The translations under genes and the position numbers were made by a program. Below are positions 4,100 through 44,409 of a stretch of 64,000 nucleotides of DNA, piece after piece. Every line of letters starts with the position of its first letter. Within the stretch, counting starts at the first letter, position 1. The stretch comes from Sipunculus nudus (Eukaryota > Annelida > Sipuncula > Golfingiida > Sipunculidae): positions 21,923,867 to 21,987,866 of the forward strand of contig CM049308.1 in NCBI GenBank assembly GCA_026874595.1. Reading direction: 5' to 3'. The notes beneath the pieces were generated by a model. The model was not told where the DNA came from and ran no database searches. It saw only the letters and a program-made list of their open reading frames with translations.

Positions 4100-4830
4100 G
4101 ACTTTTTTTTTTTTTTTTTAACAAAGTTTTATTCAACAAAAATAATTACAAAGCTTTTCAGGTCTGTACAAAGCTATGATATGACGTACATAAATTAATC
4201 ATTAACCACCTCTACAATTTCCTTCAATACACATCTCCAAACAATATAAAATAATATAAAAAAATTCCACATTAACATGTCGAATTCTGTTTCATTATAA
4301 TAAACATTGTAATATCGACCACTTTTCCATAAAATTAGACACATTCCCCTTATTTTTTGCAATAATATATTCTATCTTCATATAATGTTTCAAATAATAC
4401 TTGAACGCTCCAATATTTAATTCTTCCTGCTTACATCTACATCTATAGATGTATCTTTTTCCCAATGTGAGTAGATAATTTTTCCAATCGTCACCATTTA
4501 AGTCTCCTAAGAATACTGTTTTCTTATCAATGTGAAAGTGATCAAATTTCAACTTATTTTGACTCCATTTTTCCATAGATATCCAAAATGTTTTTATTAT
4601 GTTACATTCCCAGAACAGGTGAGGTATATCCTCAGTGGCGAATTTGCAGAATGAACATTTATTATCTTCTTTTAACTTCCATTTTTCCAACCAATAATTA
4701 GTAACAAGAACATTCTGTAAAAATCTAAATTGAAAATTCTGAGTTTTCACATCTGTAAATACCTGTTTTGGTAGTAAGTGTACAGACCACCAGTCACAAT
4801 GGTCAATATTCAAATATTTATTAATCTGTG
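4100..4830 (-). pseudogene. LINE fragment: 3' end of a reverse-transcriptase ORF with a zf-RVT-like zinc finger
   Basis: The minus strand is open from 4813 to 4295 (172 residues). It contains C-S-F-C followed by H-L-F-W-E-C, a Cx2C...HxxxxC pattern typical of the zinc-finger region after the reverse transcriptase in non-LTR retrotransposons, surrounded by aromatic and Lys-rich sequence. No RT catalytic domain remains, so it is a 5'-truncated copy. A T-run at 4105-4122 (an A-run on the element strand) may mark its 3' tail. Independent of CRNKL1. Confidence 0.6.
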
Positions 4831-5723
4831 GTGGCTTTAAAGTGTTTGAGCATGTACAACTGTCATGCAGATAAGAGCACTAATCTGCAAGACCACCTGC
4901 TTAATGTGACAATTTTCTAAAGATAGAATCTAAACAAATTGACTACTACCTGTGGACGAACAAGCAACAATAGTTTGATAACAGCATTGTAAATGGTGGT
5001 AATTGCACTTTGCAATATTTTATGCTGTTAGGGTTCCCACCATGAGTTGCATAGAATGGCTGTATCATCACCCTGGGCCACCATGTTTGAATATTGCACA
5101 GACAATTTAATTAATCATATGCTTTGGATTCTTGTTTGAAATCATGAATATAGGCTCTATTGGTTAAGTTTCACACCACATAGGGTACAGCCCGGAGCCA
5201 CACAATGCGGCTGCCTTGGACAAAAGACAAATGTTACGAAGTACCCGTTTCATTTAAACAGGTTATCTGTATTATGTGTGATTGCATCCATTTTACATTT
5301 AATCAGTTTGTGATTAAATATTGTATATAGTTCATCCTGGTGGTTTCATAAGCCAACACTGTCATACCATAACAAACACACCATTTCCTTTCAGCGAAAA
5401 AAAACCCAAAAAAATAACAAAACCTGAATATTTGTTTCGGGCATTTTTTCATTGAAAACGCCTAAAAGATTTATCTTTTTGTTTTAATTTTTTTCTCAAG
5501 CCAAACTTAGCAGCACATAATCCGCTCACTTCAGGTTGATGTAATATCGGTGGCGCTTCCAGATAAAATCGCCTCAGCTTGATCTTAACTGGGCTGTCGG
5601 TGGCACAAAATGGCGGTGGCACCAGGCTCTAACATAAAGAACACTTCAAGATTACATTTTCATGTGAATACTTATCATTTTGATGAATCAGGAATAAACT
5701 TGTGAATTTCTGTTTTAAAACAG
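4831..5723 (+). other. Region upstream of the first visible CRNKL1 exon
   Basis: It should contain, or lead to, the CRNKL1 promoter and first exon, but no segment encoding the expected short basic N-terminus can be recognised. An ATGGCGGTGG start-like context at 5610 stays open for 27 codons beyond the ATG but has no family sequence. Confidence 0.4.
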
Positions 5724-5813
5724 GTGAAGAACAAGATGCCAGCTCCAGTCCAGATCACAGCAGAACAGCTTCTCAGGGAAGCAAAGGAGAGGGAGCTCGA
5801 GCTGTCAGAACCG
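5724..5813 (+). CDS. CRNKL1: CRNKL1 visible exon 1 (residues 1-30 of the readable protein)
   Basis: Acceptor ttttaaaacag at 5723 and donor gtgagt at 5814, both phase 0. It encodes [15 protein letters not shown] followed by [15 protein letters not shown], the conserved N-terminal block that precedes the HAT repeats. An in-frame ATG lies at 5736. Because the conserved VKNK comes before it, I treat this as an internal exon with a small upstream coding exon not recognised. Confidence 0.93.
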
Positions 5814-8800
5814 GTGAGTTAATCGTATTTCTTTCAATATTAATTGCATAATGGCCTCTTGTCAGTATTGTTCAAACAATGAAACAGTAAAACTTTATAG
5901 TGTCATAGTCAAAGTGACTTAATTAAATATAGCTTTGAATTGGCAGAGGTTCGACACTAGCAGGTTTATTTTTTGTTGTTCTTGTGTTGTCAACTTAATT
6001 ACATAGTGTTGTGACTGACGATCGATTATAAATGATGATCGGTCTGCTGATGCAGACGATCTGATGATCAATCTTGTATTGCCATCTAATCGATTACAGA
6101 GTTTTTCACAAAGGTTAAGCTTTATCATGCTGGAAGGTACACTTTTCATCAAATTTATGTGAAAAAAATTAGAACAGTATGTGTTTACTAATAGATTCAC
6201 ACCCTAAGTTTAAAATGTAGGCTATAGGCCAAAAAAATAAAAAGGTATGGTTCTCAGGCACTTTTTTTCTGAAATCAGTGCGGATGGGCAGTATTTTATT
6301 TTTGATCTTTTTTGGTATGTTTTGATAAAAATGTCATATGATCAGGGGAAAGTATAAAAATAACAAATTTGTTTGCTAAACAGGTGAAAGCACTACATAT
6401 ATTGTATTATTTATCTTCTTGAAAGATTAAAATAAAAATAAAAATGTTTGATGCTGGGGATTTAAATTGACGTGGGTGGTGCCTGAGAACCATACCTTTT
6501 ATTTTTTTAAGCCATAGAGTTATAACATATATTAGCTTTGATGTAGGCCTCTATCAATAGAGCCCTGGGTTTTCTGTTTAAACAGAAAAACGGAATTAAG
6601 GTTCAAAAACAGAATTATTTTAAATGCGTGGAATACGGCGATAAATCAGATTTAGAGCAGATTTCAACTGCCAATAAAGAAATTCTCAGCCAATATCTGG
6701 TAAAAAAAAAATCTTTAAAACTGCGCCAGCCATCTACATAACAAGCAGATATCAGCAGACCTTGCTTGTGTGCCAAGATTATTGAAAGTTGTAGTTAAAC
6801 ACTTTATGAATTTATGATATTAAATGATAGCTGAAGATTGACTTGATAAGATTGGAAATTTTTGGTTGAAACATATGTTGTGAATGTCTGCATTGTATTT
6901 TTACATGATACCCAATCTCTCCTTTGTTTTAGCCGCCGAAACAAAAAATCTCAGATGAAGATGAGCTCGCTGCTTACAGGCTTAGGAAAAGAAAGGTACT
7001 TTTGTTCAGTGTTAGACCCTAATTCATTCCAACTTCAATTGTGTTTTTATGAATATTGCATTTTTCTGCAAGAGCCATATTTCATAAAAAAGTATTCATA
7101 AGGTATGCATGATCTGTATTAGCTATTGAAGACTTTCATTGCTAAAGTGTAAAGCATAACAATTTAACAAAATTTTTTAATGTAAAGAATTTTATACATT
7201 TATTTTAATAATACCTTGATGAAAATAAGTATTGTAGTGGGACAGTGAGCATTTGATTACCTGCACTTGTTAGTGGTATCATTCTGGTCTCAAATTGATG
7301 TAACTTTAACGTGCTAGAAATCACCTTAATAAAATTATTATTGTTTGTAGATGTTTGAAGATAATATAAGGAAAAACCGGTCAGTAATGACAAACTGGAT
7401 CAAGTATGCTCAGTGGGAGGAGAGCCAGAAAGAGATACAGAGGTAAACAAACAAACAGGTGTCGAACCATAACCTCCTGGGCTGAGGTACTAATCAGTCC
7501 CAGAAAGTGTTATATTGTTGATACCATAGAAGCAGCAGCCAAGATGGTAATCTTAAGCCAGACAATCTAATATTGAATAATGTTACCTAACATTACATAA
7601 AAGTGTTACCCCATGGCCTTTTTTGGACATTTAACCTATAATATTTCTGGAGAAGTATAGCTTATTTTATTTCTTGGAGAAAGAGAAAAAAATGAGCAAG
7701 AGAAGAAAAAAAGAGAGAAAGAAAAGTAGAGAGAGAGGTAGAATCAGAGAGTTTCTCTCTTGTCTCTTAAAGTTTGTTTTTTCACATAACTAAACACTGA
7801 ATTATACTAATTATGGATATTTTTATGTACAGCCATTTACTTGTTTGTGACACTTTCGTCCTCTCGACCGCTACTGCTCAGTGGTAGATGGTATTTCTGC
7901 ACAGTGAGCAGATTGTGGAATTTGGGCAGGTTGTGTTGTCCGTCATAATTAGCACACCTGATACTTCTTTTCGGATGTGAATGGCCTCAAGGCGAGCAGT
8001 AGCAGTCCCACAGTCTGATGAAGTCCACTGACATGATTGGACAAAACTGTCAGAAACAAGTAAATAAGTAACTGTGTATAAGAATATTCATAGTATATAA
8101 TATACTACACTAGCCTTGTGTGATTTTAAGAGATAAACACTGAATAGTATTTGAAGATTATTGTCAGAGTTTGCTGACTGGTAGCAAGAATCAGATGATT
8201 TAGAATTTATAGATACCTGCATATTGCAGTACCCAAACTGTCTTATTTCACTTGAGTTCGGTAGTGCTGTGTCATATTTTATACAGTAAAACCTCAAAAT
8301 ATTGACCACAAATGAGACGCAGATAAAGTGGTTATATTTTTTTAAAGTGGTCTTCTAAGGGAGGTCGATAAAAAGCAAAAGAGAATCGGCACTGTTACAA
8401 GTAGTCGTTATTTTGGGATGGTCACCAAATTGAGCTGGTTGTAAGGGGAGGTTTTCCTGTAGTAATATCTGAAAAAGGTGCAGTGTATTGGTACAGCACA
8501 GATTCTACTTCTGTTATTTGCAGAGCCAGATCAGTGTGGGAGCGAGCACTTGACGTGGACCACAGAAACATCACTGTGTGGCTGAAATATGCAGAAATGG
8601 AAATGAAGTAAGTTTAAACTATAGATAAACCATTTGTTACCCATGAAAATAGACCTGCTAGGCCATAAGTAATAGTATTCCCACTTAAATATGTAAAAGG
8701 GATTGTTATCCAGTGCCTAGATGGATGTCATTGAGGCATTAGTTGCTCAAACTAACGGCCTTTGCACTAAATGGGATCAGTCCCTGGTATTTGCATATTA

Positions 8801-11800
8801 GTATGTCACAAGGTTTTTGTAGGACCTGGCAGATTATTCCCAGTGGAATATTAATATGTCACACTTTAGGTCAAGAATGGTGATAATTGAAGGACCCAAG
8901 ATTTATCTGGGATAGACCCCAATATTACTGACATCACAGGAAAACATCCTCAGTTCAGCTAGGTGGCAACAGGTGGTGCTAACTATCACATGACTGTACA
9001 TTATACCAGTCGATATGCCTACAGCATTGTGTTGGTATGATGAGTTCTATAGTTTTCTTTCATCTTGCAGCAAGCTGTGTAACTAATTCATTATCCAAAA
9101 AGTGTTATTTAAAGCATATTGACTGGGCAACCCTGTGTACAGAATAATTCAATTTTTTTTACAATATTGCAAGAGTGGCATTGAGTAAAAGATAACTTAA
9201 CAAGTAGTTCTTTTTAGTTTAATGGCTATGTAGGTTATGAGTATGTTACAATCTGCCTATGAAATAAATCATTTGTCATAATGTTTAACAGATTTCAAGC
9301 ATCTTCGTATGGATGTTCAGATATTGCACTAATATCTAATAAATCATAACTATTGACTTGTGTAAACATTTTGATTATTTCCACATTTGAGGTTTTCTTT
9401 CTGGAGTGATTTATGGACTAGAGCCCATGGTCAGGCATCACTTTATTATTTTAAAAGAATTGTGATATATTTCTCACCAGGAACCGGCAAATTAATCATG
9501 CAAGGAACATATGGGACAGAGCAGTGACCATCTTGCCTAGGGCCAACCAGTTCTGGTACAAATATACATACATGGAGGAGATGCTAAACAACATAGCAGG
9601 TATGGCCTGTACTAGACTATAGTCCATCTCATCCCCTCTTATCTACTTTTTTTGCTATGAAAATTTTTTATTAGTTATATTTCAAGGGATGCAATTATAG
9701 TGGGGAGTAGAGGATTATAGGACCTTATTTTCAACAAGGTAAATAAATACCTACCTTACACAGTATTTCAGAAAAAGAATTATATGAAAATATGAGAAAT
9801 CAGTCTACATTTTACAACATATCAGACCCATTTATGGCGGTCAAGGTCATTGGTCACATGCAAAAACAGCCTCAACTGACAGCTGCTGATTGGATGATCT
9901 CATGTAAACACTCTAAAAAATATTACCAGCTAAAACAAAGATGGCTAGGGACACATCATATCTGCCAGATCATGGTGTAAAACCTAAAATTTATTTAAAC
10001 ACAAACGGGGAATTTTCAGTAAAACATTTAATTGCCATATTAGGTTGTCACTTCGATATGTTGTTTTCTTGGAAAATATTGAAAAATATTAACTTTTAAG
10101 AACATCATCAACAAAACATAAGTGGACAGCAGGTGGTGAAACGGACTATAGCTGCACCTTTAGTTAGTTCTATGTGGACCTTTAGTCCATTCCATCGGCA
10201 GATGTAGTGAGTTCCATCTGCAGATGTCAGTTCCAAGTGTTCCAGAAGTTGCCTATTTGAAATAGAATGATTCGTTCTTTTCCAGTATTATCACATTGGA
10301 AAAAAAATCCACAGGTGAGTTTTATGTCCTTGGGCCCTTGTGTAATATTATTTTTATGCCCCCGCCACAAAGTGGCCAGGGCATATAGTTTTACCCATGT
10401 CCGTCATTCCAAAATCAAACAGTTGTACAGACTTTTTTTCGCAATGCCTGCAGATATTGGCCTGATTTTTGGTGTGTAAGCAGATAATGACCAGTTACAG
10501 AACAAGTTCGCGTTTCGTCAAGGTTGACCTTTTTTTGACCGTTTTATGGCTCCTAAACTTTAAAAATTTCATGAAAAATAGAAATTTTCATGACAAATAC
10601 ACATGTACGGACTTTTTTTCGCAATGCCTGCAGATATTGGCCTGATTTTAGGTGTGTGGGCAGATAATGACCAGTTACAGATTGAGTTCGCGTTTCATCC
10701 CAGTTGACCTACTTTTGATTTTTTTTTACGGCTCCTAAACATAGAAAATTTCAAGAAAAATTTAAATTTTCATGACAAATGTACATGTACAGCTGTTTTA
10801 GCCCTCAGCTCATAGGCTGATTGGCTATTGTCATCACCCAAGCTGTCCATCTGTCTGTCCGTCTGTCTGTCTGTCCGGAGTCTGTCCATCCTGCGTCTGT
10901 TAACTTTTACCTTGTGAGCAGGATATATATATCTCTAAAAGGATTCACCGCTGCAATTTTATTTCATCAGTGAATATGTATATCGATAAAATCTCGGTCA
11001 AGTTCGAAGATGGGTGACCTTGACCCATTTTTCTACATTTTAGAGCTGATTATACAAAAACACTCAAAAGCTTATATCTCAGGAACCATATGGTGGATTG
11101 TTATGAAACATGGTACATACCTCTCCAATTTAAATTTATAACTGATTATCAGCTTTTGCTAATATCCTAGTTTCGCAATGCAGTGCTTACAGATACTGGC
11201 CTAATGTTTGGTCTGTGGGCGCAGAATGACCACTTACAGATCAAGTTCGCGTTTCGTCCCAGTTGACCTATTTTTGACCATATGACAGATCCTGAACATA
11301 GAAAATTTCATGAAAGACAGAAATATTTATGAAAAATGCACATGTATGGACTTTTTTTCACAATGCCTGCAGATACTGGCCTGATTTTAGGTGTGTTACT
11401 TAATAATGACCCGTTACAGATCGTGTTTGCATTTTGCCCTTGTTGAACTACTTTTGACCATATGACTACTCCTGAACTTAAAAAATTTTACAAAATTTAA
11501 CAAATGTTTCTAATTTGCCCCAGGCGGGGGCATTTGTGTCGTTCTGACACATCTAGTTTTAGACAGTCACCATATCGGCAAATATATGATTAATTAATTA
11601 AAAAAACTGCTCTCCAGATATCTTGAGGACATGTAAATGGTCTTAGAGGAATACAGTTCCTGCTTTACCTCATGATGTGTGAATATATTATGTCTTGTAT
11701 TAATTACAGGTGGACGTCAGGTGTTTGAGCGATGGATGGAATGGGAACCAGAAGAACAAGCATGGCACTCATATATCAACTTTGAGTTGCGCTACAAAGA

Positions 11801-14800
11801 GCTTGATAGGGCCAGGGCAATATATGAACGATATATCCTTTTTGTCATCATGCTCAAAATACCAGCATCTCCTAATACAGTCACATATTCATGTCATATT
11901 AAGAACCAAATTTTTATCCAATCTTATCTGCTGTAATAGTTTGCTAGAACAATTATGAAAGACTCAAAAGATCATTCAGATGAAACTTATTTAAAAGGAG
12001 ATACCTTGCTTATTTTGCATTTATATCTTGCGGAGATATTTCCTTACACTTATGTATCATATACAAAATTTATACCTCTAATATAACTCTTCACGATTTT
12101 CACATTCCTGGTGTGGGTGGTGGAGGGGGGGGATGACAGGTGTTTAAAATGGGTTAATTGTCCTTTGTCTATTGCTCATTTAGTAATTCTATAGGTAAAT
12201 TTGCCAACTGCAGACAACAGCTGTCTAATGTATTAAGTGTCATTGGATCATGTATTTCCTTAACAGTTCCTACTTGTCATTGTTCATCCAGAAATTAAGA
12301 ACTGGATCAAATATGCCAAATTTGAGGAGAAACATCATTACATTAACAGCAGCAGAAGGATCTATGAGCGGGCAGTCGAGTACTTCGGAGATGACAACAT
12401 CAGTGAAACCCTGCTGGTTGCATTTGCCAAATTCGAAGAAAATCAGAAAGAGGTACGAGCAGGGTTTATTGTGGATACTAGGGTTGTCACAATATACCAG
12501 TCCACTTATACATCCCAGTGAAGTCATACACTGTATTGATAACACCAGATGTTCTTATATTAATACATTAATGATACATGGTAAAACCCTGTCCTGTTGA
12601 GCTCGCTTAAATAAAAAAAAAACACTTGTGTTGAAGTTTCATGCTCAAAGTAAAATGTTACATTATTACTATATCAAACCTGCTTTTGTCAAAACCTCAA
12701 ATACGCCAAAGCTTGATTGTAAATCCCTTCAACTTCAGCACAACAAGGTTTAATGGTCCTAAAGTCAACTAGCGCAGGCATCTGATAGGCTGAAGTCTTC
12801 TCATCATCAGGCCTGAAAATATTTGATTGATAAAGAGAAATAAAAGACAACAAAAACTAAACAAAAGGTTGAATGCTAAGGATCAAATATTTTTCTTCCT
12901 GATTTTTAGCTCAGCTGACTATAAGTCATCTGAGCTATAGTCGTGGTCCATTGTCCGTCCGTCCGTCCGTCCATCCGTCTGTCGTGCCATCCATCTGTCC
13001 GTAGATGTGGCACGTTTTGAAACCGCAAGACCTAGGAATCCTAAATTTTGGCATAATGTTAGATGTCCCCAAGATCTCCTACCAAGCTGAAAACTGGGTC
13101 TGTGCGACTTCGTTCCTTTGAGAAATTAAGGAAAACCTCAATTTTTTATTATAAACCTATTTTCACACTTCAGGACTGCCTAATATCAAAACTGCTCATC
13201 TGTTTTTCCTCATATTTACCATAAATATTCCCCTATATATTTTCTATGTACATGCCAGAAATTATTTCTGTATTATATAATTTAAAAAAGTTATGGGCCC
13301 AAACATAATGCATTTTGTAAAAAATCAGGAAAGATATTTGATCACTCAACACAAAACATGTTAAAGCTATGGACCTTTTTTTCCAGTAATATAACTTTAA
13401 TTAATCAAAATTAAATTGTATACCCAAAATTAGATCAAAATCTTTTAAATTTTTTGAAATATTAACAAAAATAAAAAATTGGTACCTTAAATTTTTCCCA
13501 ACTTTGACCATGGCACGTTTTTTTCCTGTAAGTACTGTGGATTTAATTTTCACAGCATGTTTTTGTTAGCATTTTGTATGTTAACACCAACAATTTGAAA
13601 CCAGTTGATGATAAACTGTAGATTTTATTCAAGTTTTCAAGCACTATGTAACATATTGTTTACATCAAGCTAGTGTTATGCAGTTTGCTAGAGCTCAGCT
13701 CCTTTACTTCAGCTCTCAGTTCCTAAAATTTGGCATACAATTAGATGTCTCCAAAATCCCCTTCCATGCCAAGAATTTGGTCACTAGGACTTAATACCTT
13801 CGAGATATTAATGAAAAACTTCATTTTTCCATTAAAAACCCATTGTTACACTTCAAGACTGCCTAATATCAAAACCACTGATCTGTCTTTAATCATATAT
13901 AGTATACATATTTTTCTATACATTCTCTATACACATGCCAGAAATGATGTCAGTATTGCGTAATTGTTTTAAGTTATGGGCCAAAACATAATGCACTTTG
14001 TAAAAAATCAAGAAATATATTTACTCCCTTAACAAGAGGATTGCTGAAGCTAGAGATTTTTTGTCAGGGATGTAACATTATTTAATCAAGATTCAATTGA
14101 ATACCCAAAATTAGTTCTGAATTTTTCAAATTTTATAAGTTATTAGTATAAATATAAAATTAGTACCTTAAATTTTGCCAAACTTTGACTTTGGCACATT
14201 TGTTTCCTGTGAGCACTGTTGATATAATTTTTATATCATGCACACATAAGGATTTCAGCTTTTTAGTTTAGAAAGCTGAAAGAAATTGGCCAAAAATTGT
14301 AGCTTTTATTAATGTTTTTATGAGACCATGTCAGACCTTAGCTCTCCCCATCCCCTCTTGAGTCACCTGTATGTTGACCTTGTTGACCTTTCATCAAATT
14401 ATGCACGCTTGACGCGAGGCATACACTGGGGCAGCCAGGCAGCTTATGGCCAGCCACAGTTGATCCAGGTGTCCAACCCAATTCAACTAGTAGTTGTCAC
14501 TAACAACATAACAATAAACAATAAATGAATAAATTTTTATTGGTTTTTAATATCAAATTAAAGAAATATAGAAGAGGAATTTGTTAGTTGATAATAACAG
14601 GAAATTAACTTGCAGTGACTGATGATATAAGAATCCTGTGTCGATTGATAGAATATCACGTATTCCAAATAACACCATGCAGTCACCTATGGTATTTTTC
14701 AGTTCAATTTTAATGATAAAAAAATAAATCATATTATTCATTACTAATCATTAGGGATCATATGAAGGAAATTAATGACAGACAAAGATGCAGTTGATAA

Positions 14801-17800
14801 TATTAATCTAGATTCCTGCTGTGTCTAGTGTGTACATTGATGTGAAATTAGTCCAAAATGATTTTTTTACAGTTATTTTTTAATATAAATAAAAGCCATA
14901 AAACCAGTTACTTATGATTATTATTCAAATGTGTGAATTTTGTATATTCTGGATTCTCAACATCATTGTTTGGTAAAAACTGAATAAATACCAGACATGG
15001 TGCGAATACTTTGTTATTGTATTTAAATACGAATATGATTATGTACTCCATTATAAAATTTCTTGCATAAAGAATGGGAATTCAGGTAAAAATGAAAGTA
15101 TATGAATACTCGTGCAAATACTTTCAAAATTTATTCATGAATGCATTCATGAATATATTCTTTAATATTATTTTAATAATCATTTCAGTTATATTTCATT
15201 TTAGAAAATCATATGATTCTCTTATTATTTTTAATTAAAATTATATTTGGGACAATATTTGTAATTTTTTTTAATAAATAGTTAAACTCTTATATTATAT
15301 GTTCTGCTTATAAGTTATATGGCCAAGTCAAAATCTGTGTGACAATAGTACTCCATTTGTTAATAAAATAAATGAAATCAATCCTCTTCCCTGTCTCCAA
15401 AGGAACTATCAAAATCATACATAAGCTAAACACCCACAACTCATAATACAGCTTATATTTATTACCACACAAAACCAGCATGTGCCTCATTTCTAAATCA
15501 TATTTTTTTATCATATATAACAGCTGAGCGCCGTGACCCATGGGTCCCTTGTTTTATGAGATGCCATCTGTGTAAAAAATGATATTGCTTTTCTCCATAT
15601 CAATCAGTGGAAACAGTCACAAGAAGGGGAGGATAAGTATAATGATTATATTCAAGATTATTATAATGTAGACTTTTTTTGATGTTCAGATTTTCAAAAG
15701 GTTGAGAATTATGACCGATTAAGCAAAATTCCAATAAATTCAATTTAATGAAAGTAAATGAAAAATGGTCAATATAACGGATTAATTGACAAAACACTAT
15801 TGTTTATACTCTTTTTATTTTCCTATAATTACAGCATGACAGAGCTCGAGTAATCTACAAATATGCCCTCGACCACCTGCCTAAGGACAGCTGTCAGGAA
15901 ATTTATAAGCAGTACACGATGCATGAGAAACGCTACGGTTCACGTGCTGCTATAGAAGATGTCATCGTCAGCAAGAGAAAGTTCCAGTATGAAGAGGTAA
16001 GAACTCAAAAACGCCATTCATCTATTTGCCCATGTCCCCAATAATATTCCTATGTTATAGTTTGAGAGTCATGTGTCAATATGCAGTTTGAGAGTCACAA
16101 TACTACACGCGCAAGTCCTTACTGAAGTTGCAATGTCCTTTGGAGCCATAGGATTTCTGTTGGGTTTAATCTTAAACTGGAGCTTTGGAGTCGAATAGTA
16201 ACACTATTTTTATTTTTCAATATGATAACCTATACATTCGATCATACAAAAAAATTATTGTTATGAGGATTTGCTTTTCCTGTATTACAGATTTGCCACT
16301 CCTGTTTTTCTTTGGTCCAATTTTTTTTTTTTTTGCAAATGAAGACCAGGTCCTAGTACTATGGCAATAATTCCTTAAAGGGACCCATTCACCTATCTGA
16401 GTTTTATAAACTAAAGGTAATCCCTTCAAGCTATTTTAAAAATGGGCTCAAAAAAGTGGATATCACATCATATAGGCTGTTTGTTTTGTTTATATAAATG
16501 TGTTTATAATATGTGGGGGCCCACCAAAGTAATAAAAACAAATTAAACAAGGGCATCTGGGGGCAAGTCAGATAAGCCAGAGCTTTGCAAATGGCCGTTA
16601 GCAGGGCACAAATCGTAACTGCTGGTCCTAGAAACTTCTAAGTTAACATCCAAGGAGGTCAATAAAAAATCTCCTTGGAAACCTGAAATTAGTGACCTAT
16701 ATCCTCCGAACTATAGGGCTTGAAAGTACCACCCAGAATTATCAAAAATATAATACAAAATCTCCAATATCTTGATAATTAATGCATGGATTGTCATGAA
16801 TCTTGCCTTGAATATTGACCATGACTAGTTTTGTCAGTTCCCCAAAAGTGGTGGTGCCACCTGTATTTTTTTGCCACTTTAACGAATATTTTTCTATTTT
16901 TTTTACTATAAAATGACAACAATCATGTCAGTTTCTCAGCTGTAATTACATCTAGTGTCCCAAAACCTGGTGTGTTTATTGATCACAAAGTGGATGCCAT
17001 ATAGTAATCACCCTGTCTGTCTGTCTGTTGGTCTGTCTGTCTGTCCATCCGTCCATCCACACAAATTTGTTTCCAGATGATAACTCCAGGTTGTATTGAC
17101 ACATGGATTTCAAACTTGACTTACTTATGGCCCACCTCTAAAGCAAGAACATATATGATTTTGGGGTCACAAGGTCAAAGGTCAAGGTCACAGGACTCAT
17201 TTCTTTAAAAAGAATGCATATGCATTTGAAGGCAAACTTTTCATTGCAAATAGGGAAAGATTCTGTTCAGTTTTTTGGGGTCATGAGGTCAAAGGTCAAG
17301 GTCACAGTATCCACTTATTTAGAAAGATTGTGGATGCATTTTAAGCCAATCTTTTCATCCCAAACCTTTGATCTTGCACATATAGCTGAGCTGCCAATAG
17401 GGGAAGAACCTGATTGATGTGGGGATCACAAGGTCAAAGGTCATGGTCACAGGGGCCCTTCTGACACATATTTGTTTCTGGATGATAACTCCAGTTTCAA
17501 TTGACATATTGGTTTCAATTTTGACTTATATATGACCCACCAATAATGTTAGAACCCTTTTGATTTTGGGGTCATAAGGTCAAAGGTCAAGATCACAGGA
17601 CCCACTTCTTTAAAAAAGATTGTTGATGTATTTTTAGCTCAGCTGACTGAAAGTCATCTGAGCTATAGCGATCACTCTTTGTCCGTCGTCCGTCTGTCCG
17701 TCTGTCCGTCTGTCTGTCTGTCCATCTGTCCGTCCGTTAACCAGGCACAAATCGTAACCGCTGGACCTAGAACCTTGTAACTTGGGATTCTGAGAGGTCC

Positions 17801-20800
17801 ATAAAAAATCTCCTTGGAAACCAGAAATTAGGTCTCTGTTACCCATATCCTTCGAGCTATGTGGCCCCAAAGTACCCCCCAGAAAAGTCAAAAATTTCAT
17901 ACAAAAACTTCAATATCTCATTAACTACTTGACTGATGGTAATGATTTTTGGCATACATATTGATCATGAGATGTTACATCACTTCCTGCAGACTGGTGG
18001 CGCCACCTGTATTTTTCGATTTTTTACGAATTTTTTTCTCTATTTTTGAGACCTTTAAAAATGTGAACATCTGTTAACAAGGCACAAATCATAAAGACTG
18101 GACTTAGAATCTTAATTCTTGACACACTGAGAGGTCCATGAAAAATCTCCTTGGAAACCAGAAATTAGGTCTCTGTTACCCATATCCTTCGAGCTATGGG
18201 GCCCAAAAGTACCCCCCAGAATAGTAAAAAATTTCATACAAAAACTTCAATATTTCAATAACTACATCACTGATGGTCTTCATTTTTGGCATACATATTG
18301 ATCATGAGATGTTCGATCAGTTCCTGCAGACTGGTGGCGCCACCTGTTCTGTTTGATTTTTTACGATTTTTTCCTCTATTTTTGAGACCTTTGAGGATGC
18401 TGTCATCTGTTAGCGTGGCACAAATGGTAACGACTGGACATAGAATCTTCATTTTCGACACACTGAGAGACCTATGAAAAGTCTCCATGGAAACCAGAAA
18501 TTAGGTCTCTGTTACCCATATCCTTCGAGCTATGGGGCCCAAAATTACCCCCCAGAATAGTCAAAAATTTCATACAAAAACTTCAATATCTCATTAACTA
18601 CATCACTGATGGTCATGATTTTCGACTTACATATTGATCATGAGATGTTTCATCAGTTTGTGCAGACTGGTGGCGCCACCTATATTTTTCAATGTTCACG
18701 AATTGTTTTCTCCATTTTTGAGACCTTTAAGGATGTAGTTATCTGTCAACAGGGTACAAATCGTAACGACTGGACCTAGAATCTTCGTTCTTGACACACA
18801 GGGAGACCCATGATAAGTCTCCATGGAAACCTGAAATTTGGTCTCTGTTACCCATATCCTTTGAGCTATGGCACTCCAAAGTACAGCTCAGAATAATGGA
18901 AAATTTGATTCAAAAGCTAAAGTATCTGAACAACTAATGCAGAGATAACCATAATTGTTTGCATGGATATTGATCATGGAGTGTTTCATAAGTTTCTGCA
19001 GACTGGTGGCATCACCTGTATTTGTTCGGTTTTTTTTACGAAATTTTTCTGTATTTTTGAGACCTTTAAAGATATGAACATCTGTTAACAGGGCACAAAT
19101 CATAAAAACTGGACCAAGAATCTTCATTCTTGACACACAGGGAGACCCATGAAAAGTCTCCATGGAAACTTGAAATTAGGTCTCTGTTACCCATATTCTT
19201 TAAGCTGTATCTGTCCAAAATACCCCCCCCCCCCCCCCCCCCCAGAATAATGGAAAATTTGATACAAAAACTGCAGTATTTCAATAACTACAACACTGAT
19301 GGTCATGATTTTCGGCATACATATTGATCATGAGCTGTTCCATCAGTTTCTGCAGACTGGGTGTGCCACCTCTATTTTTTTTCAAATTTTTACGAATTTT
19401 TTTCTTTTTTTTTGAGACCTTTAAAGATGTGGTTATCTGTCAACAGGGTACAAATCGCAACAACTGGACCTAGAATCTTCATTCTTGTCATGCAAGGAGG
19501 CCCATGAAAGGTGCCTGTGGAAACTTGAAATTAGGTCTCTGTTACCCATATCCTTCAAGCTATAGGACTCCGAAGTATCCCTCAGAATAATGGACAATTT
19601 GATACAAAAACTGAAGTATCTGAACAACTAATGCAGAGATCACCATGATTTTTTGCATGTATATTGACCATTAAGTGTTTTTATTAGTTTCTGCAGACTG
19701 GTGGAGCCACCTGTATTTTTGTATCCGCCAAAACGAAGTTTTGTGGATACTATGTTTTTGACCGAGTTCCTCCACCGTGGCGGCATTCGTTTCCAGAGAG
19801 CTCCTCGGAGACTAATGGACTGATTTTTCCCAAACTTACACCTATTATCGGGTCACATGTGAACTGGTGCCTAACCAATATGCGTTGACCTCTGACCTTT
19901 CCTCTCTATCCAGTGTCCATTTGTGGGTCTGTTTCCACTCATAAACCCTCATATCTTGGGAACCGTTTGACCGATCAGGAAATAAAATTGATACAAATGT
20001 AGCCCTTGGATTGCTTTATAACATACACAAAAAATGGTGGCGCCAACTGTAACCATGTTTGCACAGTGTCCATCTGTTCATCTGCCTTGGGTTAAAATCA
20101 CTCATATCTCTGCAGTGAATTGACTAATTCACCTGAAATTCGTCATGCGTATACATCCAGGATAGCTTTCTTGATTTTATGACAGGTGGCGCCACCTACG
20201 TTCACGTTCACGCTGATGACATCCAAGCTTATATCTTGGGAACCTTTTGACCGATCAGGAAATAAAATTTATACAAATGTAGCCCTTTGATAGCTCTGTA
20301 ACATACACAAAAAATGGTGGCGCCACCTGTAACAATGTTTGCACAGCGTCTGTCTGTTAGTCTGCCGTGGCCTAAAATCACTCATTTCTCTGTAGTGGTT
20401 CGACATAACTGCCTAAAATTTTGCAGGTTTATACATCGTGGACAGCTTTCTTGATTTTATGACAGGTGGCGCCACCTACATTCTAGTTAACGCTGCACAC
20501 ATCCAAGCTCATATCTCAGGAACCATTTGACCGATTGGGCCAAAATTGTGCATGTGTTTAGATCTCACATAGGTCTTTATCATACACAAAACTGGAGGGG
20601 TTACCTGCAAAGATTTTTGCACAGTGTTTGTCTGTTTGTCTGCCATGGGCAAAAATCGCTCATATACATGTAGTGGTTTGACTTTTCTGCCTAAAATTTT
20701 GCAGGTGTATACAACTTGGACAGCTTTCTGGATTTGTGGTAGGTGGCACAACCTACATACACATTTAGGCTGCAGACATCCATGCTAATATGCAACATAC

Positions 20801-23800
20801 CTCACTCTATTTCCCCTTGCCACTCAATCCATGCCTCACTATCCGATTTTGGCAGATACATGTAGTCACTTGTCGGTTACCTGTATTCTAGTTTTAAAAG
20901 TTTACACATTTTTCTCTATTTTTGAGATATATAAATACAGACTAAATCTTGGCCTGTTGGTTAATCTGTTTGATGCTTCAGTTGAATGGGTATATACTAC
21001 CATTCTGATGATAAAATTTCCTTTTGCGAATCTCTTCCCAGTCAGCTGAGCGTCATGACCCATGGGTCACTTGTTATCCAAACTTTCTGCCCAAAACCTT
21101 CTATCTTCCAGATGTTGCTCACCTGCCAATAGTGGAAGTGACTTATGGATTTTGGGGTCACAAGGTCAAGATCATGTGGGCCATCTATCCACTTATTAGT
21201 TTCCAGATGATAACACCAGTTTGTTTTTAAATATTGGTTTCAAACTTGACTTATATATGGCCCACCACTTAAGTAAGAACTGTTGATTCTGGGGTCATGA
21301 GATCAAAGGTCAAGGTCACAGGACCCACCACTTTAGAAAGACTGTGGATGCATTTTAAGCCAAACTTTTCATCTTAATCCTTCCATCATCAATATGTGGT
21401 GCACATGCCAATAGGGGAAGTTTCCTTTTGATTTTTGAGTCACAAGGTTAAGGGCACAGGCCATATCCATTCACAAATTAGTTAATGGATGATAACTTCA
21501 TTTTGGGTGGACAGGTTGGCTTCAAACTGATCACAGGACCAATATTTTGGAAAACCTCATAAACATATATCCTTATAGACAAATGCAGCTGAGTGTTGAG
21601 ACCCATGGGTCCCTAGTTAAAAACCCATCTCTGACGGGATGTATTATGGTATACCCACAATCCCTCCATCCATTAATTTTGAGTGTCGCCACGTAAACTT
21701 AATCACCATAACTACTTACCAATAGATTATTTGCCCAAGTTCCATTATGGGCAAAATCAACACATATTTAATACTTAAGTTCAGAGGTCACTAGGCTGCT
21801 TTGTGGTGTTGCCGTATAACTTGCGGGGAATTAAATGGATTTTGATAAAACTCAACAGAAACATTAATCAGTGTTATATCTTGCCTAAGTTCGATTTCCA
21901 GCAAAATCCACACATATTTAATGAGGTCAGAGTCCTACTGACTTTGGTGGCACAACAGTGACTAATCTTATGGATTTTGATGACCCTAAATATTTAAATT
22001 TACCAATAGAGTTTCTCACCTGCATGACATTCCTAGCAAAATTTGCACATATGAATTGAGGTCAGAGGTCACAAGATACACAACAGGTGTATTATGCACT
22101 ATATGTGGTGCTCTTGTTGAGATTTGGATTGGATCCTTGTATGTAATCACATATCACTTTATGATATTTTTCACAAAGCATTTATTAAATTTCTGGAAAG
22201 TGTAATGCTAATTCTTGTATAATTATGCCAATCCTGATCACCTAGAACTGAAATGAATATGTGTCATGAATGGTAAAAATTACATTCCTATGGAGTTAAA
22301 TGTTGTTCAAAAAATTTAGTGACATATGTACTTATATATGCTAACTTTTGTAAGTGTTGTTATTAACCAAATTAATGAACTAGCCTTCTTTTTTTTGTTC
22401 AGCTGACTGTAAGTCATCTGAGCCATAGCGATCACTCTTTGTCTGTTGTCCGTCCAGCCATCTGTCCATTAACAGGGCACAAATCTTAACTGCTGGACCT
22501 GGAATCTTCTAACTTTACATCCGGAGAGGTCCATGAAAAGTCTCCTTAGAAACGTGGAATTAGTTCTCTGTTACCCATATTCTTCAAGCTATGGGGCTCT
22601 GAAGTACCCCCCCCCCCCCCAGAATAATGAAAAATTTGATACAAAAGCTCAAGTATCTGAACAACTAATCCATTGATCACAATGATTCTTTGAATGTATA
22701 TTTATCATGGAGTGTTTCATCAGTTTTTGCAAACTGGTGGTGCCACCTGTATTCTTTCAATTTTTTACAATTTTTTTTCTCTATTTTTGCGACTGTTAAA
22801 GATAGGGTCATCTGTTAACAGGGCACATTGTTACCGCTGGATCTAGCATCTTATAACTTAACATCCAGGGAGGTCTGTGAAAAATATCTGTGGAAACTTG
22901 AAACTAGGTCTCTGTTACCCATATTCTTTGGGCTATTGGGCTTATAAACACCCCCCATCAAAATTAAAAATTTGATACCAAAGCAGGGCACAAATCATAA
23001 CCATTGGACCTGGAATTTTCTAACTTTAAATCCAGTGAGGTCCATGCAAAGTCTCCTTGGAAACAGGAAATTAGGTCTCTGTTACCCATATTTTCTGAGC
23101 TATGGGGCTTATAAGCACCCCTCAGAATAACTGAAAATTTGATACCAAAGTAGAGCACAAATCATAACCATTTGGCCCAGAAAGCTCTTACATGACATCC
23201 TGAAAGTTCCTCAAATGTTCTCCCCAGAAACCTGAAATTCGGTCACTGTGACCTATATTCTCAGAGTTTTGGGGTATGTTTAATCATCCCAGAAATAATG
23301 CAATATACACACAGATTCCTTAGGAAAGGCTGGTTGGATTGTCATCAATTTTGTTGTGCTTATGGGTCTTGATGAGCTTAAGCTAACATGCATGAACAAT
23401 GATGCCACCTACAATATCTTAATTATTTGCCAGTGCAAGGATATTTTGTTAACATGTCAGTCAGTTGAGCCTCATGACCCATGGGTCACTTGTTTGGTGG
23501 AGGTGACCGCCCCCATTTTGTAATGCTCTCTTATCTAATTCTTATTCTAAGTATGTACATCTGCAGAGCTCCATTTCGGTTTGGGACTTTGTTACAGGGC
23601 CGTAGCACTCGCTTCCTGTCATATAATTTGTGTATCCTGATGTCACCCAAGCCTGTTGTCCACAACACCTGCAGGTCATGGAAATGTAATCATCCCAATT
23701 GCTGGGTTATACCCTGAGGACCCCCCCCCCCCCACAAAAGACGCACTAATTTGTGAGTGATAAAGGCTATTGGGCACAGCCTTCCAATTAGCTTGCTGAG

Positions 23801-26800
23801 CACTTGCCCCGATTGGGGACAGTCCATGAAAATCTCAGAGCCTCCACTGAGATTTGAACTCACGACCTCCCGGCTTTGATTCCTGTACCTTACCCCTGAG
23901 CCACAGAATCCAGATCCTGTCTTTAACCATCATGTGTGTTGCCAGATAACAGTGGTTAATTTCTGTTTTTCAGGAAGTGAAAGCCAACCCACAGAACTAC
24001 GATGCCTGGTTTGATTATCTGCGTCTGCTGGAGAGTGATGGTGACCCAGAACAAGTACGAGAAGTTTATGAAAGAGCAATTGCAAATGTACCACCTTCAA
24101 AGGTAAGTAATTGATATGTTTTAATACTTTCTCATTTTATGGAAGCTTATAATATAGTAGATTTTTGCTGTACCTCATTTCTGTCCAGCTGTTTCTCGTG
24201 CTGCCTAGTAATTTTAAAGGACAGGTTATTGCAGTTGGTAATTTCAGAACCTGAGCATAATCAGTTTTATTGGTAATTTCACAATCTAGGGATAATCAAT
24301 CATTAATTTTGTTTTAAGTCATGATAAAATTATGAAAAAATCATTCAGATATGATATTCTGGAAATGTAGGAACCCTGTAGAATTTACTTAAAAAGTTTG
24401 AAGTTTTTATCTTCTTGTAATGTAAGACACCTCTTTCACTTATCATGTACAGTAGAACCTGTCTGAAAGACTATCTGTCGAATAAGACCACCTGTGAATC
24501 AAGACCACTCTTGGCCAGTCCCACAGGTGGTCTTACTGCACAGGTTTACTGTTTATACACAACTTTATGCTTGTAGGAAAAGAGACACTGGCGACGGTAC
24601 ATCTATTTATGGATTAACTACGCTTTATACGAGGAGCTGGAGATGGAGGACTATGAGAGAACGCGTCAGGTGTACCAAGTCTGTCTAGAACTGATTCCAC
24701 ACAAAAAATTTACATTTGCTAAGATGTGGTTACTCTATGCTCAGTTTGAGATTCGACAGAAAAATTTGCAAAAAGCTCGTAAAATTTTGGTAAGTTATCA
24801 TCTTCATTAATTATTCACATGAATTCTTGTGAAAATTAATATTTAAAAAATTATGACTGGTTTACTTTATCTCAGCTGATATCTCTGATTGCTTCAATTT
24901 TTAAATAGTTGGCCTTAGGTTTTCTCAGATTTAAATAAATTGGCCTTTTCCTGTTTAAACTTCTCATCTGTGTCATCATTTTCAGGGTACTGCTATTGGA
25001 AAATGTCCCAAGGATAAACTCTTCAGGGGTTATATTGACCTAGAGTTACAGCTGAGGGAATTCGACCGATGTCGGATATTGTATGAAAAGTTTCTTGAAT
25101 TTACACCAGAAAACTGTACAACCTGGATGAAGGTAGGCTTTGTTCTTCTCTCCTCTATTTCATTAAATCCACAAAGAAGATGAAGAAACAAGTAGGACAC
25201 ACTCAGATCAGGCTTGGCAAATAACTCTTTTTAAAAAGAGTTACACTTCTTTTAAGATTTGCTAATAATTATGCCAATTACTCTTTTTCACTCTTTTTTT
25301 TTACCAGCACTTTTTTCCTCTGTTTTTCAGTAAAAATTTTGAGATTTTTAATACATCTTTTGTGTCATAACAGTTAAATTAGTACAAGATGGGACACCTT
25401 TTTTGGTAATTTTTTGTTGGCAAATGTCAAGCATGTAGACAAGTCTATGGAGCACATCTTTCTTCAGTTTGTCATAAAAAATGAGAATTATTGCTGATTG
25501 TACTCTTTTTTTTTTTTCTCTTTAACTTCAAAGAAAACTATTCTTTTTTTTAGAGCACTTACTCTTCATTACATTCATTCACATTTAGCGGGCCTGAAGA
25601 TAATTTCAAGCAGGATACTCATCAGATACACTCATACCAGTACTTGATTATCTGTCACATTTGACAGTCTTTTCCTACATTCATGTGAAAATCTGAACAC
25701 GTAGAACTAGAAAAGCGCTTAGAAAGCACAGACCTCAATCAAGGCAGCTCATCACCCAAATATGGTATTTTCAGAAGTGCAGCATTTTTCCTTTAAAAAA
25801 TTCCTGGGTCCACCCCCCCAAATTTAATTAATTCTTCCTTGTATCATTGCTGAGCTATCCTGAAAATTTGATCAAAATCCTTTAATGACTTTTTGAGTAA
25901 TGTCGCTGACAGACACACAAACAAACAGACAAATGTATTTTCTTACTAACAGCCATAAGTTTCACAAGTATTCTGTCATGGTGACATGAACAAGAAAGAC
26001 TTCCAAATATAGAATTAAATATGATATAAATTTGTCTTCCTTAATGTAGGAAAATACTTTATTAACCCTGGAACCTCAAAGGAACTGTTACCATTTATAT
26101 TACATCTACAGTATATCATGCATGTTTTCAAAATGAAAATAATTTTGATCTTGCAGCTTTATATTATGTATCAGGGAATAATATAATTATAGAAAAATCA
26201 TTAGTGATCATAGCAGATCAGTGTTGAAAAATGATTGGCGGTTTATGCTTCCGAGTGGCAGTTTGTCATTGACTTTTATTTTAGCATGTAAAATGTTATG
26301 ACTGGCTATTTAGATCTGGAGTATAATAAAGTTCCTTGAATCATAACAAGTGAGTAGAACCAATATTTTGCAAAAACTTCATAAAAAAAACTATAAATAA
26401 ATAATTGTCAAAATCATATCAGACTAGTCATCATAGCAATACAGTACAGTGGTAGGCAGCAAGGTGCTAAAAATAATATATCAGTTCAGGATCCCTTCTG
26501 TTCAATTAGTCCTATAGTCTGGACTTTCTTAATTATGATGGCTTCCTCAAGTGTTCCTTTTCTTTGATGGACCTGCCTCCTTATTTGAATATTTATTAGC
26601 AGTCATAGCGAATCAAAACGAGCAAACTATTAGCACCTGGCCTGAATTGACACACTGCAAACTCGGACTCACAAAGTATGACTCTGTTGTTTAGGGATTG
26701 TCAAAATCTGACACCTACAGTGCACCAAGGCTTCTAAATACACCAGCAGAGTAGGTATAAATGTAGTGAAGAGGACAGTGTAGTCCGTTCAAGTGTGGTG

Positions 26801-29800
26801 GATAAGAATTGTTTAAAGGCAAATTACATAAACATCGGTGTCTAGTGGTAAGGGTTTTAAGGAATAAGTAATATTTTGTAAGCATGCACATGTGAAATGT
26901 AAACAAAAGGTGTTTCCTTGAAATTAAACCTGTTTTGATTTTAAAGTTTGACAGTTGAGACAAGTAGTCCCGGGTGTCACCACAGTGCTCAAACACAAGA
27001 GATTTGTTTTGAGTAGAAACAACCTCTGGTGGAAGGGTGCTGAATCGATTATCAAACTATTCCCTGCCTGTCATTTTTAATGATAAATTTAAACTTCAGT
27101 ATTCTGAGCTTGAAACCATCCTGGGAGATCTGGACAGAGCACGATCGATATTTGAACTTGCCATCAATCAGCCCCGACTGGACATGCCGGAGGTCCTGTG
27201 GAAAGCTTACATTGATTTTGAGATTGAGCAGGGAGAGTACCAAAACACACGCAACTTATACAGACGACTTCTACAGCGCACACAACATGTAAAGGTAAGA
27301 GTTATCTTATTTTATTTGTAGTTTCATGGCATTATTTTACCTTGTACCTTAGAAAGGCAAATAAATCTTACATTAAGAATTTCTGTTACTGTAACCATCA
27401 GTCATGAATGTGACCTTTAACCCTAAACTTGTGATAAATGAAGGTTTGCATCCAAAACATCTTTCATCACTTTCCATTACTTTCACCCAGACAAATAAGA
27501 ACATTAGTGTTGTATTAATAAACTGTTAATTATTTATTACGCAAGAAACACTAAGAGAGGGATAACATATACTGCCAGCTGATTTGGGGTTTCTGCTGTA
27601 TGTTTATACTTACAAAATATTCCTGTACCTTTTTTGAAAGCTTAAGTTAAACAATATCCCTCATTTTCTGAAATCATCAGATATTCATAGTTATTTAACA
27701 AAACAGTATTATAAAGTGTTAGAGTATTTTGGTATAATTTTGTTGGTCTTTGTGATCCTCCTAGGAAACAAAATTTGTGGCATGGGTAAAATTTCTCATA
27801 GTGAACTGTACCACATCAGTAAAGTTTATTATTAAAAATTATTCAGTGAGAACATAGAAAATCCTTAGTGATGAATCAGAATAAATAATTTATTTTAACT
27901 TATTTAAAGCCGATTAATTAATGCAGCCACAGCACTTGACAGGATGGCACTTGACAGTGTGGCACCCTCACCCTGTGAGAAATTATGTGCAGCACAGAAA
28001 CACTGCATATGTTAGTTGAATTATAGTATTTTAAAAAGGATGGCACCCATCTAAAAATAGAGTTATTTATAAAAAAAATTAACTTTGACCAGGTATGGCT
28101 GAGCTATGCCCAGTTTGAACTGACAACTCAAGAGGATGATTGCTTTGATAATGCCAGAGAAGTCTACAGGCAGGCTAACAGAGCTCTGAAGAAAACAGAC
28201 CAAAAGGAGGAACGACTTATGTTACTCGAGGCCTGGAAAGAATTTGAGGTAATTTATATTATAACTGACAGTAACACTGAATCTTTGCCATGCAATTCCT
28301 CTGTGGCCAAGCCTTGCAAATGCTGTTTCATTCATAGTCTAAATGTGAGGTTTGTCTTTCACATTTCTTTATTACAAACATAAATCTTTTACCAAATATA
28401 GTCATCATTTATTAAATGTTTGCTGGGCTCCCCTCTTAAAGCTCCTGATAGTGCCATGAGTCATCCTGAGTAGAGTAATTCCCCCCTATAAAATCCTGAG
28501 GAATTTGACATTATTAGGGAAATTTGATGAAGGGTCAGTGTAACTTTACTCATGGAAAACCTACCAAACAAATCAGACGAAAGTCATACAGATCATTTTC
28601 AACACCAGATCAGTAATGTGCTAGTTATCTTTGTTGTAAAAGGATTTACCTGTTGGTATTGTGTACCTGAGCTGTAAAATATCAGGAATTGATCCTCATA
28701 TAACTATCAGTTTACAAATGGACAGTCTCACCTGTTTATGTATGTGGTTTGAGGCTCTGATAAATTGCTGGTAAGGGAAAAGATGATTGCAATGAGTGTT
28801 GGTAGACAGTCAGGGTTCGTACACTTATCACGAGAAAAATTTCAAGCACTTTTCAAGGACCTGAAAAGTATTTTCAAGGACATCAAAATTTATGGACGGT
28901 CAGTGCACCTTCACCCATGCATGTTGCCGACATCGAAAGGCTTGTAACACAAAATGCAAAATAATATTTATAATGAGATGGACCATATAGTGTGATAAAA
29001 AGGCTAGTAAATGTAGGTAAGTAATAGTTATAAGGAAATGACTCAGAAAAGTAACAAATTTAACCGAAATCTACACTAACAGCAATTGAAGCGCTTGTGG
29101 TATAACCAGTCGCGGTTTAATACACAGCGGCCCATTGTTTTAACTTTACATTCAAAATGATCACTCATCTTTGGCATGACCTTGACAGATTTAACTAATC
29201 TGATAACTAGGGTCTAAAACCTTTAATATCTTGAATAGGGATCTCTGATTTGCCGACTAGCTCAAACTTAAGCAAATTATATGCCTTGGCAGAAGAGGTG
29301 CCGAAAAACTCTGACAGTTCGGCGATCGTGGGGGATATTCACTCAAGTTTTCAACGGCAAAAAAAAAATCAATAAAAGCCTCTAATATGTTACCCTTATA
29401 CGATATTTAGGTCTAGTATTATCAAATTATTCAAAACAATACTAGTCAAACTTTGTATCAGCACGTTAAATATGACGTCCTTGGCGTGCACAAGGTTTCT
29501 GCCGTTTAACGCCAAGTCACAGGCCACACGTGTCAACAAATGGCCATGCAACACCTGTGAAGGTCATAATCTAACGATCACAGACGCAACCAGATTTCTA
29601 TTCAAACCTGTCCAACATTTGATTAAAACTAAAAATGTGAAATCTTATTTTAAAAAAAACTCTTATTGGCGAGTTTTATGCAATCGTTATGCAGGGCATG
29701 GAGTAGTCCATCTCTTGACCCTTGTGTCCTATGTTAGACCTGATGGACGGACACGTAGGCATGGAGGGGGCCGATGCTGGAAGTTGTATATGTCGTTGAT

Positions 29801-31476
29801 CATTCTTTAAACTGCCAGTGTACTACGCTTACAAACGGCTATCACATCGCAACAAAAATGTGATTTCCCCCATGGATCCCAGCATTTTACAAACTGACGC
29901 CAAAGTATGTGAATATATGTCAGTACCTGCCAAACACCTTAACTATTTCGGACAAACAGTATTTATCCTTAATTGGATTGACCACGCGTGTAAACTGTAT
30001 TTTGCTGATCAGTGGTCTTATGGAGCTAACAAATGACGATCACAGCGCGTACACTTGGAATGTGCAGGTACCAAGATAAAAAAAACACAACCCTTGGATA
30101 AACTGAAAAACCTTTAACCAAAACAAAGTCGAATCGGGTTCGTTGGGGAAATATGACCCCTCTGATATAATTATTATCACCGAGTTACCAATATAAAACG
30201 TAAAGTTAACTTGATTTAAACAACATATTCTACTGAGCGAATTAGTTTTATATTATTATTATCCCTCAGATTCGAATTTTTACCATCTTGTATTTTTCAC
30301 ACATTTTATTCCCCTGGTTTGTTCCCTGATAATTATTTCCTTTGGACAGATCTTCTCAATAGTTATATTAATAATCTCTGTAGTATTACATTTAAATTTA
30401 AATTATAAATCTTGCGAAAATACTTACATGAACTCGCCTAGCGTGTATTGAGTTTTCAATTAAAGAGCTTTTAATACGTACCTCGGGGGAAATCTCCACG
30501 ATCTTTCCAGTAAAGCAGCTCACTTTCTATTTGATAATAAACATGGTTATTACCCTCGTATGTCAACTTGTTACATCGTCACTTTCACTGCCCAGTCTCA
30601 TTCATCCACGATTGGGTTAATTCTATTTCATACATTTGATTGACGTAGAGATGCCAGAAAGTCGATATTAAAATACCAGGTATGCATACACACAAAATAC
30701 ACCAAACTCTTTCCCAAAATTTTATTTTTCAAGCACTTTTCCAAACCACTCTCTCTTTTTAAGCACTTTTCAAGCCCTTGAAATTGAAATGACTAAATTC
30801 TAGCATTTTTCAAGGTTTTCAAGGTGCGTACGAACCCTGACAGTGTTTTTCTTGCATATGTTTTATAGTAGGAACATGGGGGAGGGGGAAGAGTTTGTCG
30901 TTTATATAAAGAATCCATTAATAAGACCAGAAGTTGTACTTTCACAATCATAGAAGTTGTAATTTAAGATAATTAGTTATGATGTCTGAGGAGAGGACAA
31001 ATCTGAATGAAGACTGTTGTTGTTCTCTGTAGAAGGAACATGGGGACGATAACAAACAGGCAGAGGTACAGAAACTGATGCCCAACAGAGTCAAGAAGAG
31101 GAGGAAAGTACAGACAGAGGATGGGGTAAGTTACACACTCTGAAGGATATCCAGGAGCGTCAATATAGGGGGATGGGGGGTATATATATCCCCCCCCCAC
31201 TTTTTGGCATGGGGGATGGTCGATGTAATCATTCCCTTAACTATTCAGAGAATTTAATATTTATATATTGCAAATGAAATCTATTAATAAATAGAATTAT
31301 AGACTTTGGTTCCATTTATGGGTTTACTATGAAATGTTATATGTAAACCTGGTTTAGAATTAACTTATTATACTGGAAACATAAAAACTTATTTTCCAAA
31401 CCTTTATACATAATTGTCATTTATTTGAAATGGGATTAAGTATAATTATTTAATATGTGTCCTACAGATGCTAAAA

Positions 31477-31537
<61 letters not shown>

Positions 31538-43100: not shown

Positions 43101-44405
43101 ACCCATCTCATGATACAAAGACTTGAACCCATCTCATGATACGGAGACCTGAACCCATCTCATGATACTGAGACCTGAACCCATCTCATGATACTGAGAC
43201 CTGAACCCATCTCATGATACAGAGACTTGAACCCATCTCATGATACTGAGACCTGAACCCATCTCATGATACAAAGACTTGAACCCATCTCATGATACGG
43301 AGACCTGAACCCATCTCATGATACTGAGACCTGAACCCATCTCATGATACTGAGACCTGAACCCATCTCATGATACAGAGACTTGAACCCATCTCATGAT
43401 ACTGAGACCTGAACCCATCTCATGATACAAAGACTTGAACCTATCCCATGATACGGAGACCTGAACCTATCTCATGATACAGAGACTTGAATCCATCTCA
43501 TGATACAGAGACATGAACCCATCTCATGATACTGAGACCTGAACCCATCTCATGATACAGAGACTTGAACCCATCTCATGATACAGAGAACTGAACGCAT
43601 CTCATGACACTTAGACCTGAACCCATCTCATGATACTGAGACCTGAACCCATCTCATGATACAGAGACCTGAACCCATCTCATGATACTGAGACCTGAAC
43701 CCATCTCATGATATGGAGACCTGAACCCATCTCATGATACTGAGACCTGAACCCATCTCATTATACAGAGACTTGAACCCATCTCATGATACTGAGACCT
43801 GAACCCATCTCATGATATAAAGACTTGAACCTATCCCATGATATGGAGACCTGAACCTATCTCATGATACAGAGACTTGAACCCATCTCATGATATGGAG
43901 ACCTGAACCCATCTCATGATACAGAGAACTGAACCCATCTCATGATACTGAGACCTGAACCCATCTCATGATACTGAGACTTGAACCGATCTCATGATAC
44001 TGAGACCGGAACCCATCTCATGATACTGAGACTTGAACCTATCCCATGATACAGAGACCTGAACCCATCTCATGATACTGAGACCTGAACCCATCTCATG
44101 ATACTGAGACCTGAACCCATCCCAAGATACTGAGACCTAAACCCATCTCCTTATACTGAGAACTGAACCCATCTTATGACATTGAGACCTTAACCAATCT
44201 CAAAATACTGAGAACTGACCCCATCTCATGATACAGAGACTTGAACTGATCTCATGATACTGAGACCTGTACCCATCTCATGATACAAAGACTTGAACCC
44301 ATCCCATGATACGGAGACCTGAACCCATCTCATGATACAGAGACTTGAACACATCTCATGATATGGAGACATGAACCCATCTCATGACACTAAGACCTGA
44401 ACCCA

Positions 44406-44409
<4 letters not shown>
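40105..44409 (+). repeat. 26-bp satellite array, left part
   Basis: Unit GAACCCATCTCATGATAC + TGAGACCT (26 bp, with some 24-bp variants). Copies are degenerate from 40105 to about 40800, then highly uniform to about 44100. The main variants at the TGAGACCT segment are AGAGACTT and AAAGACTT. A subtype, AAAGACTTGAACCTATCCCA, recurs at spacings close to multiples of 26 bp (for example 104, 130, 234, 286), a weak higher-order pattern. All frames are closed by TGA. Confidence 0.95.

Follow-up and report, generated by a model that had tools for sequence, protein, structure and literature searches.

Minor, or U12-type, introns are spliced by a machinery in which the U11/U12 di-snRNP recognises the donor and the branch sequence and U4atac/U6atac.U5 carries out catalysis. 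CTNNBL1 has a splicing role and belongs with the Prp19 complex. The human CTNNBL1 gene contains a minor intron (PMC3564746), as does the Drosophila gene for the splicing protein SF3A1 (CG16941), where the intron is of the GC-AG type and is absent in human (PMC2831892). A zebrafish study, in the portion accessible, lists RNA processing among the function groups of its 612 genes with U12-type introns and leaves CRNKL1 unnamed (PMC9501576). The closest described system is CRNKL1 itself, for which a study of Vero and HEK293T cells used primers described as spanning U12-type introns (PMC10098413). That source is where we find CRNKL1 linked to a U12-type intron; the available parts of PMC12256911 and PMC9895063 hold no such link, and those of PMC545797 and PMC6717393 hold no mention of the gene. 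CRNKL1 is also absent from the 19 U12-type introns of Drosophila melanogaster in Table 2 of PMC2831892, so the intron is not universal in animals. A survey of more than 3000 genomes holds that minor introns are mostly ancient and found in ancient genes, and it names molluscs among the protostome groups that are relatively rich in them (PMC10639083).

Here we describe an AT-AC intron in a 64-kb stretch of genomic DNA (the window). From its letters and its predicted protein, this intron is very probably a standard U12-type AT-AC intron in an orthologue of CRNKL1, and it most likely corresponds to an old minor intron of the vertebrate gene. Other U12-type AT-AC introns of animals (for example, those in Table 2 of PMC2831892, rows 11 to 19) share these termini and the U12 signals, and they likewise come singly in genes whose introns may be numerous, but they lie in other genes. 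The intron described here differs from the minor introns of CTNNBL1 and SF3A1 in both gene and position, and from that of SF3A1 also in its termini.

The CRNKL1 gene in the window

When the window was searched by tblastn with human CRNKL1 as the query, a string of exons was found on the + strand between approximately 5.7 and 33.7 kb. Joining the 15 located exons gave 667 sense codons followed by a stop, with no internal stop codons and with splice-site pairs in place at all 14 introns, and the predicted protein was identical to human CRNKL1 in 502 of 669 aligned columns, the human sequence being a hand-entered one. Compared with solved structures, the two exons that flank the AT-AC intron had CRNKL1 chains (8c6j_S and 5mqf_O) as their top matches, while SYF1 and other repeat proteins matched far more weakly, and the 101 residues obtained by joining these exons had chain 8c6j_S as their best match (E = 6.3e-78). 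By these protein comparisons, the predicted gene is the orthologue of CRNKL1 (SYF3, crooked neck), and it most likely belongs to an animal, which the original prediction guessed to be a mollusc. The 15 exons located within the window do not include the one with the start codon. Collections of viral and prokaryotic contigs yielded no further eukaryotic CRNKL1 gene with which intron positions could be compared, in line with what such collections contain.

Several repeats lie in and beyond the gene. A satellite with a unit of approximately 336 bp, present in 5.8 copies at 17736-19720, sits inside the CRNKL1 intron at 15997-23973 and carries five U12-donor-like [AG]TATCCTT motifs (at 17845, 18182, 18518, 18854, and 19548), which might act as decoys for the minor 5' splice site within the CRNKL1 pre-mRNA. 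An array with a unit of approximately 345 bp at 57387-59088 looks related to this satellite when inspected by eye, and it carries four of these motifs on the opposite strand. In the intron at 9600-11709, we saw by eye several diverged repeat copies at 10360-11560, with words similar to GACTTTTTTTCGCAATGCCTGCAGATATTGGCCTGATTTT. A 26-bp minisatellite (about CTGAACCCATCTCATGATACTGAGAC) forms two arrays that are approximately 3.6 kb apart, one of 145 copies at 40635-44409 and one of 35 copies at 47973-48899, and the - strand between them contains open reading frames that look reverse-transcriptase-like and endonuclease-like by eye. Fragments resembling a LINE-type reverse transcriptase/endonuclease, recognised by eye from translated open reading frames, lie on the - strand at 44936-47793 and 4295-4879.

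Splice signals and junction of the AT-AC intron

The intron begins with ATATCCTTTTT and ends with CTAC, as found both by direct reading and by script (Table 1). The U12 donor motif [AG]TATCCTT is present at its first base, in the form ATATCCTTT at 11833, and the branch motif TTCCTT[AG]AC is present near its 3' end as an exact TTCCTTAAC at 12256, which places the branch A 10 nt from the final base of the intron. Both signals sit at borders that were set independently by protein alignment. The upstream exon ends with GAA CGA T (GAACGAT), the last base being the first of a split codon, and the downstream exon starts with TTGTCATTGTT (in shorter form, TTGTCATTGTTCATCC at 12274); the residues joined by this splice align with human ...RTIYERFVLVHPDVKNWIKY, and the reading frame stays open. 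The original prediction had described an AT-AC intron with three U12 signals, and the letters and the motif positions bear this out, as do the scores of 13.3 bits for the donor and 13.9 bits for the branch in the matrix scan that it had proposed.

Table 1. Positions in the window of the CRNKL1 gene, the predicted minor intron and its signals, and neighbouring exons and introns
Feature	Position	Strand	Details
CRNKL1 (SYF3, crooked neck) gene	5724..33733	+	15 located exons, 14 introns, 668 codons including stop
CRNKL1 exon with EEMLNN peptide	9481-9599	+	
Upstream neighbour intron, U2-type GT-AG	9600..11709	+	sole other intron between counterparts of published primer sites
CRNKL1 exon before AT-AC intron	11710..11832	+	ends ...RAIYER + F codon base 1
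U12-type (minor) AT-AC intron	11833..12273	+	phase 1, 441 nt
U12 5' splice site ATATCCTTT	11833..11841	+	U12 donor score 13.3 bits
U12 branch-point sequence TTCCTTAAC	12256..12264	+	branch A 12263; score 13.9 bits
3' terminal dinucleotide AC	12272..12273	+	read from letters
CRNKL1 exon after AT-AC intron	12274..12452	+	ends ...ENQKE, contains YAKFEE
Last CRNKL1 intron, GT-AG	31126-33574	+	borders read by eye; scored with U2 donor matrix only

This intron stands apart from the rest of the gene. It is the only one of the 14 located introns with AT-AC termini, the remaining 13 being GT-AG, and its U2 donor score is -8.4, compared with 4.4 to 11.8 for the donors of the 13 GT-AG introns. In the 12 other introns scored with the U12 matrices (the last intron was left out), the U12 donor score did not exceed 3.0 and the highest U12 branch score was 6.3. 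Judged by their sequences, the 13 GT-AG introns located in the gene resemble substrates of the major spliceosome. All of these scores come from hand-entered U2 and U12 weight matrices that are round approximations; the exact motifs and the width of the score gaps carry the conclusions, and the decimals do not. Across the 64 kb, TTCCTTAAC has one copy on each strand, and ATATCCTTT has three copies on the + strand and one on the - strand. Two rates taken from 40 Markov-1 sequences, each of 64 kb, were multiplied to estimate the chance of a donor and a branch with at least these scores falling exactly at both borders; it is approximately 4e-9, or approximately 2e-6 when a slack of 20 x 20 nt is allowed. 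Taken together, the signals, the reading frame, and the contrast with the other introns support the U12-type reading that had originally been proposed.

We also scored, against the human protein, the in-frame and stop-free GT-AG, GC-AG, and AT-AC junction pairs near the border. Of 10 such pairs, 11833-12273 scored highest (452), and a GT-AG pair nested within it, at 11844-12266, scored second (434). The same scoring at twelve other junctions of the gene ranked a GT-AG intron first in each case. The original prediction also held that only the AT-AC splice restores the residues ERF; this is true among the four best pairs, but the F itself varies, being present in three of the four aligned relatives and replaced in chain 8xi2_J, which has ERY. 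After the AT-AC join, the spacing from ER to the next residues is the same in all four aligned relatives, and chain 8ro0_J has one additional residue slightly beyond the ER junction.

Other readings of the junction

The nested GT-AG pair raises the question of whether this locus is a twintron, in which the U12 pair and a U2 pair at 11844-12266 are both used and yield two proteins that are six residues apart. Such an arrangement has precedent, as nested U12 and U2 sites, one pair of them AT-AC, are known from prospero of Drosophila, and 18 human twintron genes are described in PMC3564746 (its Table 1 includes, among genes for splicing proteins, CTNNBL1, HNRPLL, ESRP1, and NCBP2). As in prospero, the GT-AG sites at the window junction are nested in frame with the AT-AC sites; the pair is in phase 0 and open, and the variable residue after ER is compatible with its use. 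The original prediction had called this alternative poor, in frame, and six residues longer, and we found each of these properties: in contrast to prospero, its GT donor, TTT|GTCATC, is very weak, with a score of -4.9 that lies well below those of the 13 U2 donors of the gene and that is equalled or exceeded by 2695 of the 3172 + strand GT sites in the window. In addition, the four aligned relatives show no insertion where the six added residues would fall, and nothing points to use of the GT donor. We consider a twintron at this junction very improbable. Other GT sites in the intron, at 12111 (7.9) and 12195 (5.9), have fair U2 donor scores and, from their sequences, might serve as cryptic donors.

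Two further readings have, in our estimate, next to no probability. In some sodium-channel genes it is the major spliceosome that excises AT-AC introns, and the termini alone leave the class of an intron undefined (PMC2831892). However, the U2-type AT-AC introns of sodium-channel genes all have G at +5 in that source, where the intron in the window has C within ATATCCTTT, and its branch sequence matches the U12 consensus in full. The other reading, that the exons belong to a dead or misassembled gene copy whose splice sites are meaningless, could draw on the missing start-codon exon, but it conflicts with a frame of 667 sense codons from 15 exons that is free of internal stops, joined by 14 splice-site pairs, and conserved with the human protein at the level given above. 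The reading of 11833-12273 as a standard minor intron in a CRNKL1 orthologue is the one that we carry forward.

Probable relation to the vertebrate intron and possible consequences

The original prediction had left undecided whether the vertebrate gene carries a U12 intron at this place. The primers of PMC10098413, which are labelled as exons 6-7-8, that is, three exons and two introns, translate to EEMLGN (residue 158) and YARFEE (residue 220) in the numbering of the hand-entered human sequence. Their counterparts in the window, EEMLNN and YAKFEE, have one exon between them and exactly two introns, a U2-type intron (9600-11709) and the AT-AC intron. The interval assayed in human and monkey cells, residues 158 to 225, is in the same gene and covers the position of the window intron. 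The available text of that source leaves unstated which of its two introns is the U12-type member and how it was classified, and it gives neither the termini nor the exact codon of the U12 intron, unlike the case in the window, where both can be read. Because the published primers bracket the position of the window intron, and because there are two introns in the interval in both cases, we infer that the AT-AC intron is most likely orthologous to the U12 intron of vertebrate CRNKL1, and old, its position in the vertebrate gene being presumed from this bracketing. Its phase 1 also agrees with the tendency of minor introns to avoid phase 0 that PMC7367187 and PMC10639083 report. The U12 intron of CRNKL1 is probably an ordinary, old feature of the gene.

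The minor spliceosome presumably acts on the CRNKL1 intron in this species. As in U12 splicing generally, joint recognition of ATATCCTTT and TTCCTTAAC by the U11/U12 di-snRNP would be followed by replacement of U11 by U6atac and by catalysis through U4atac/U6atac.U5, with the AC 10 nt past the branch A serving as the 3' splice site. A scan of the 64-kb window with Rfam at gathering scores returned no matches. If the intron were retained, translation would continue for 34 further residues to a stop codon at 11934, so that retained transcripts would yield no full CRNKL1 protein and slow removal of the intron could hold down CRNKL1 levels. One could then view the minor intron as a dose control, in which its slow removal ties the level of a shared splicing scaffold to the activity of the minor spliceosome. 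This view presupposes that both spliceosomes use CRNKL1, which is probable, but we consider the view itself unlikely.

Since CRNKL1 has been published as a gene with a U12-type intron in primate cells, the finding is already known in kind, and what is known of minor introns is unchanged by this case. A rare intron class was correctly recognised here from the bare letters, and the minor intron under study in primate cells gains one likely orthologue in a distant animal. If the dose-control view were true, such control would span animals as distant from each other as this species and primates.
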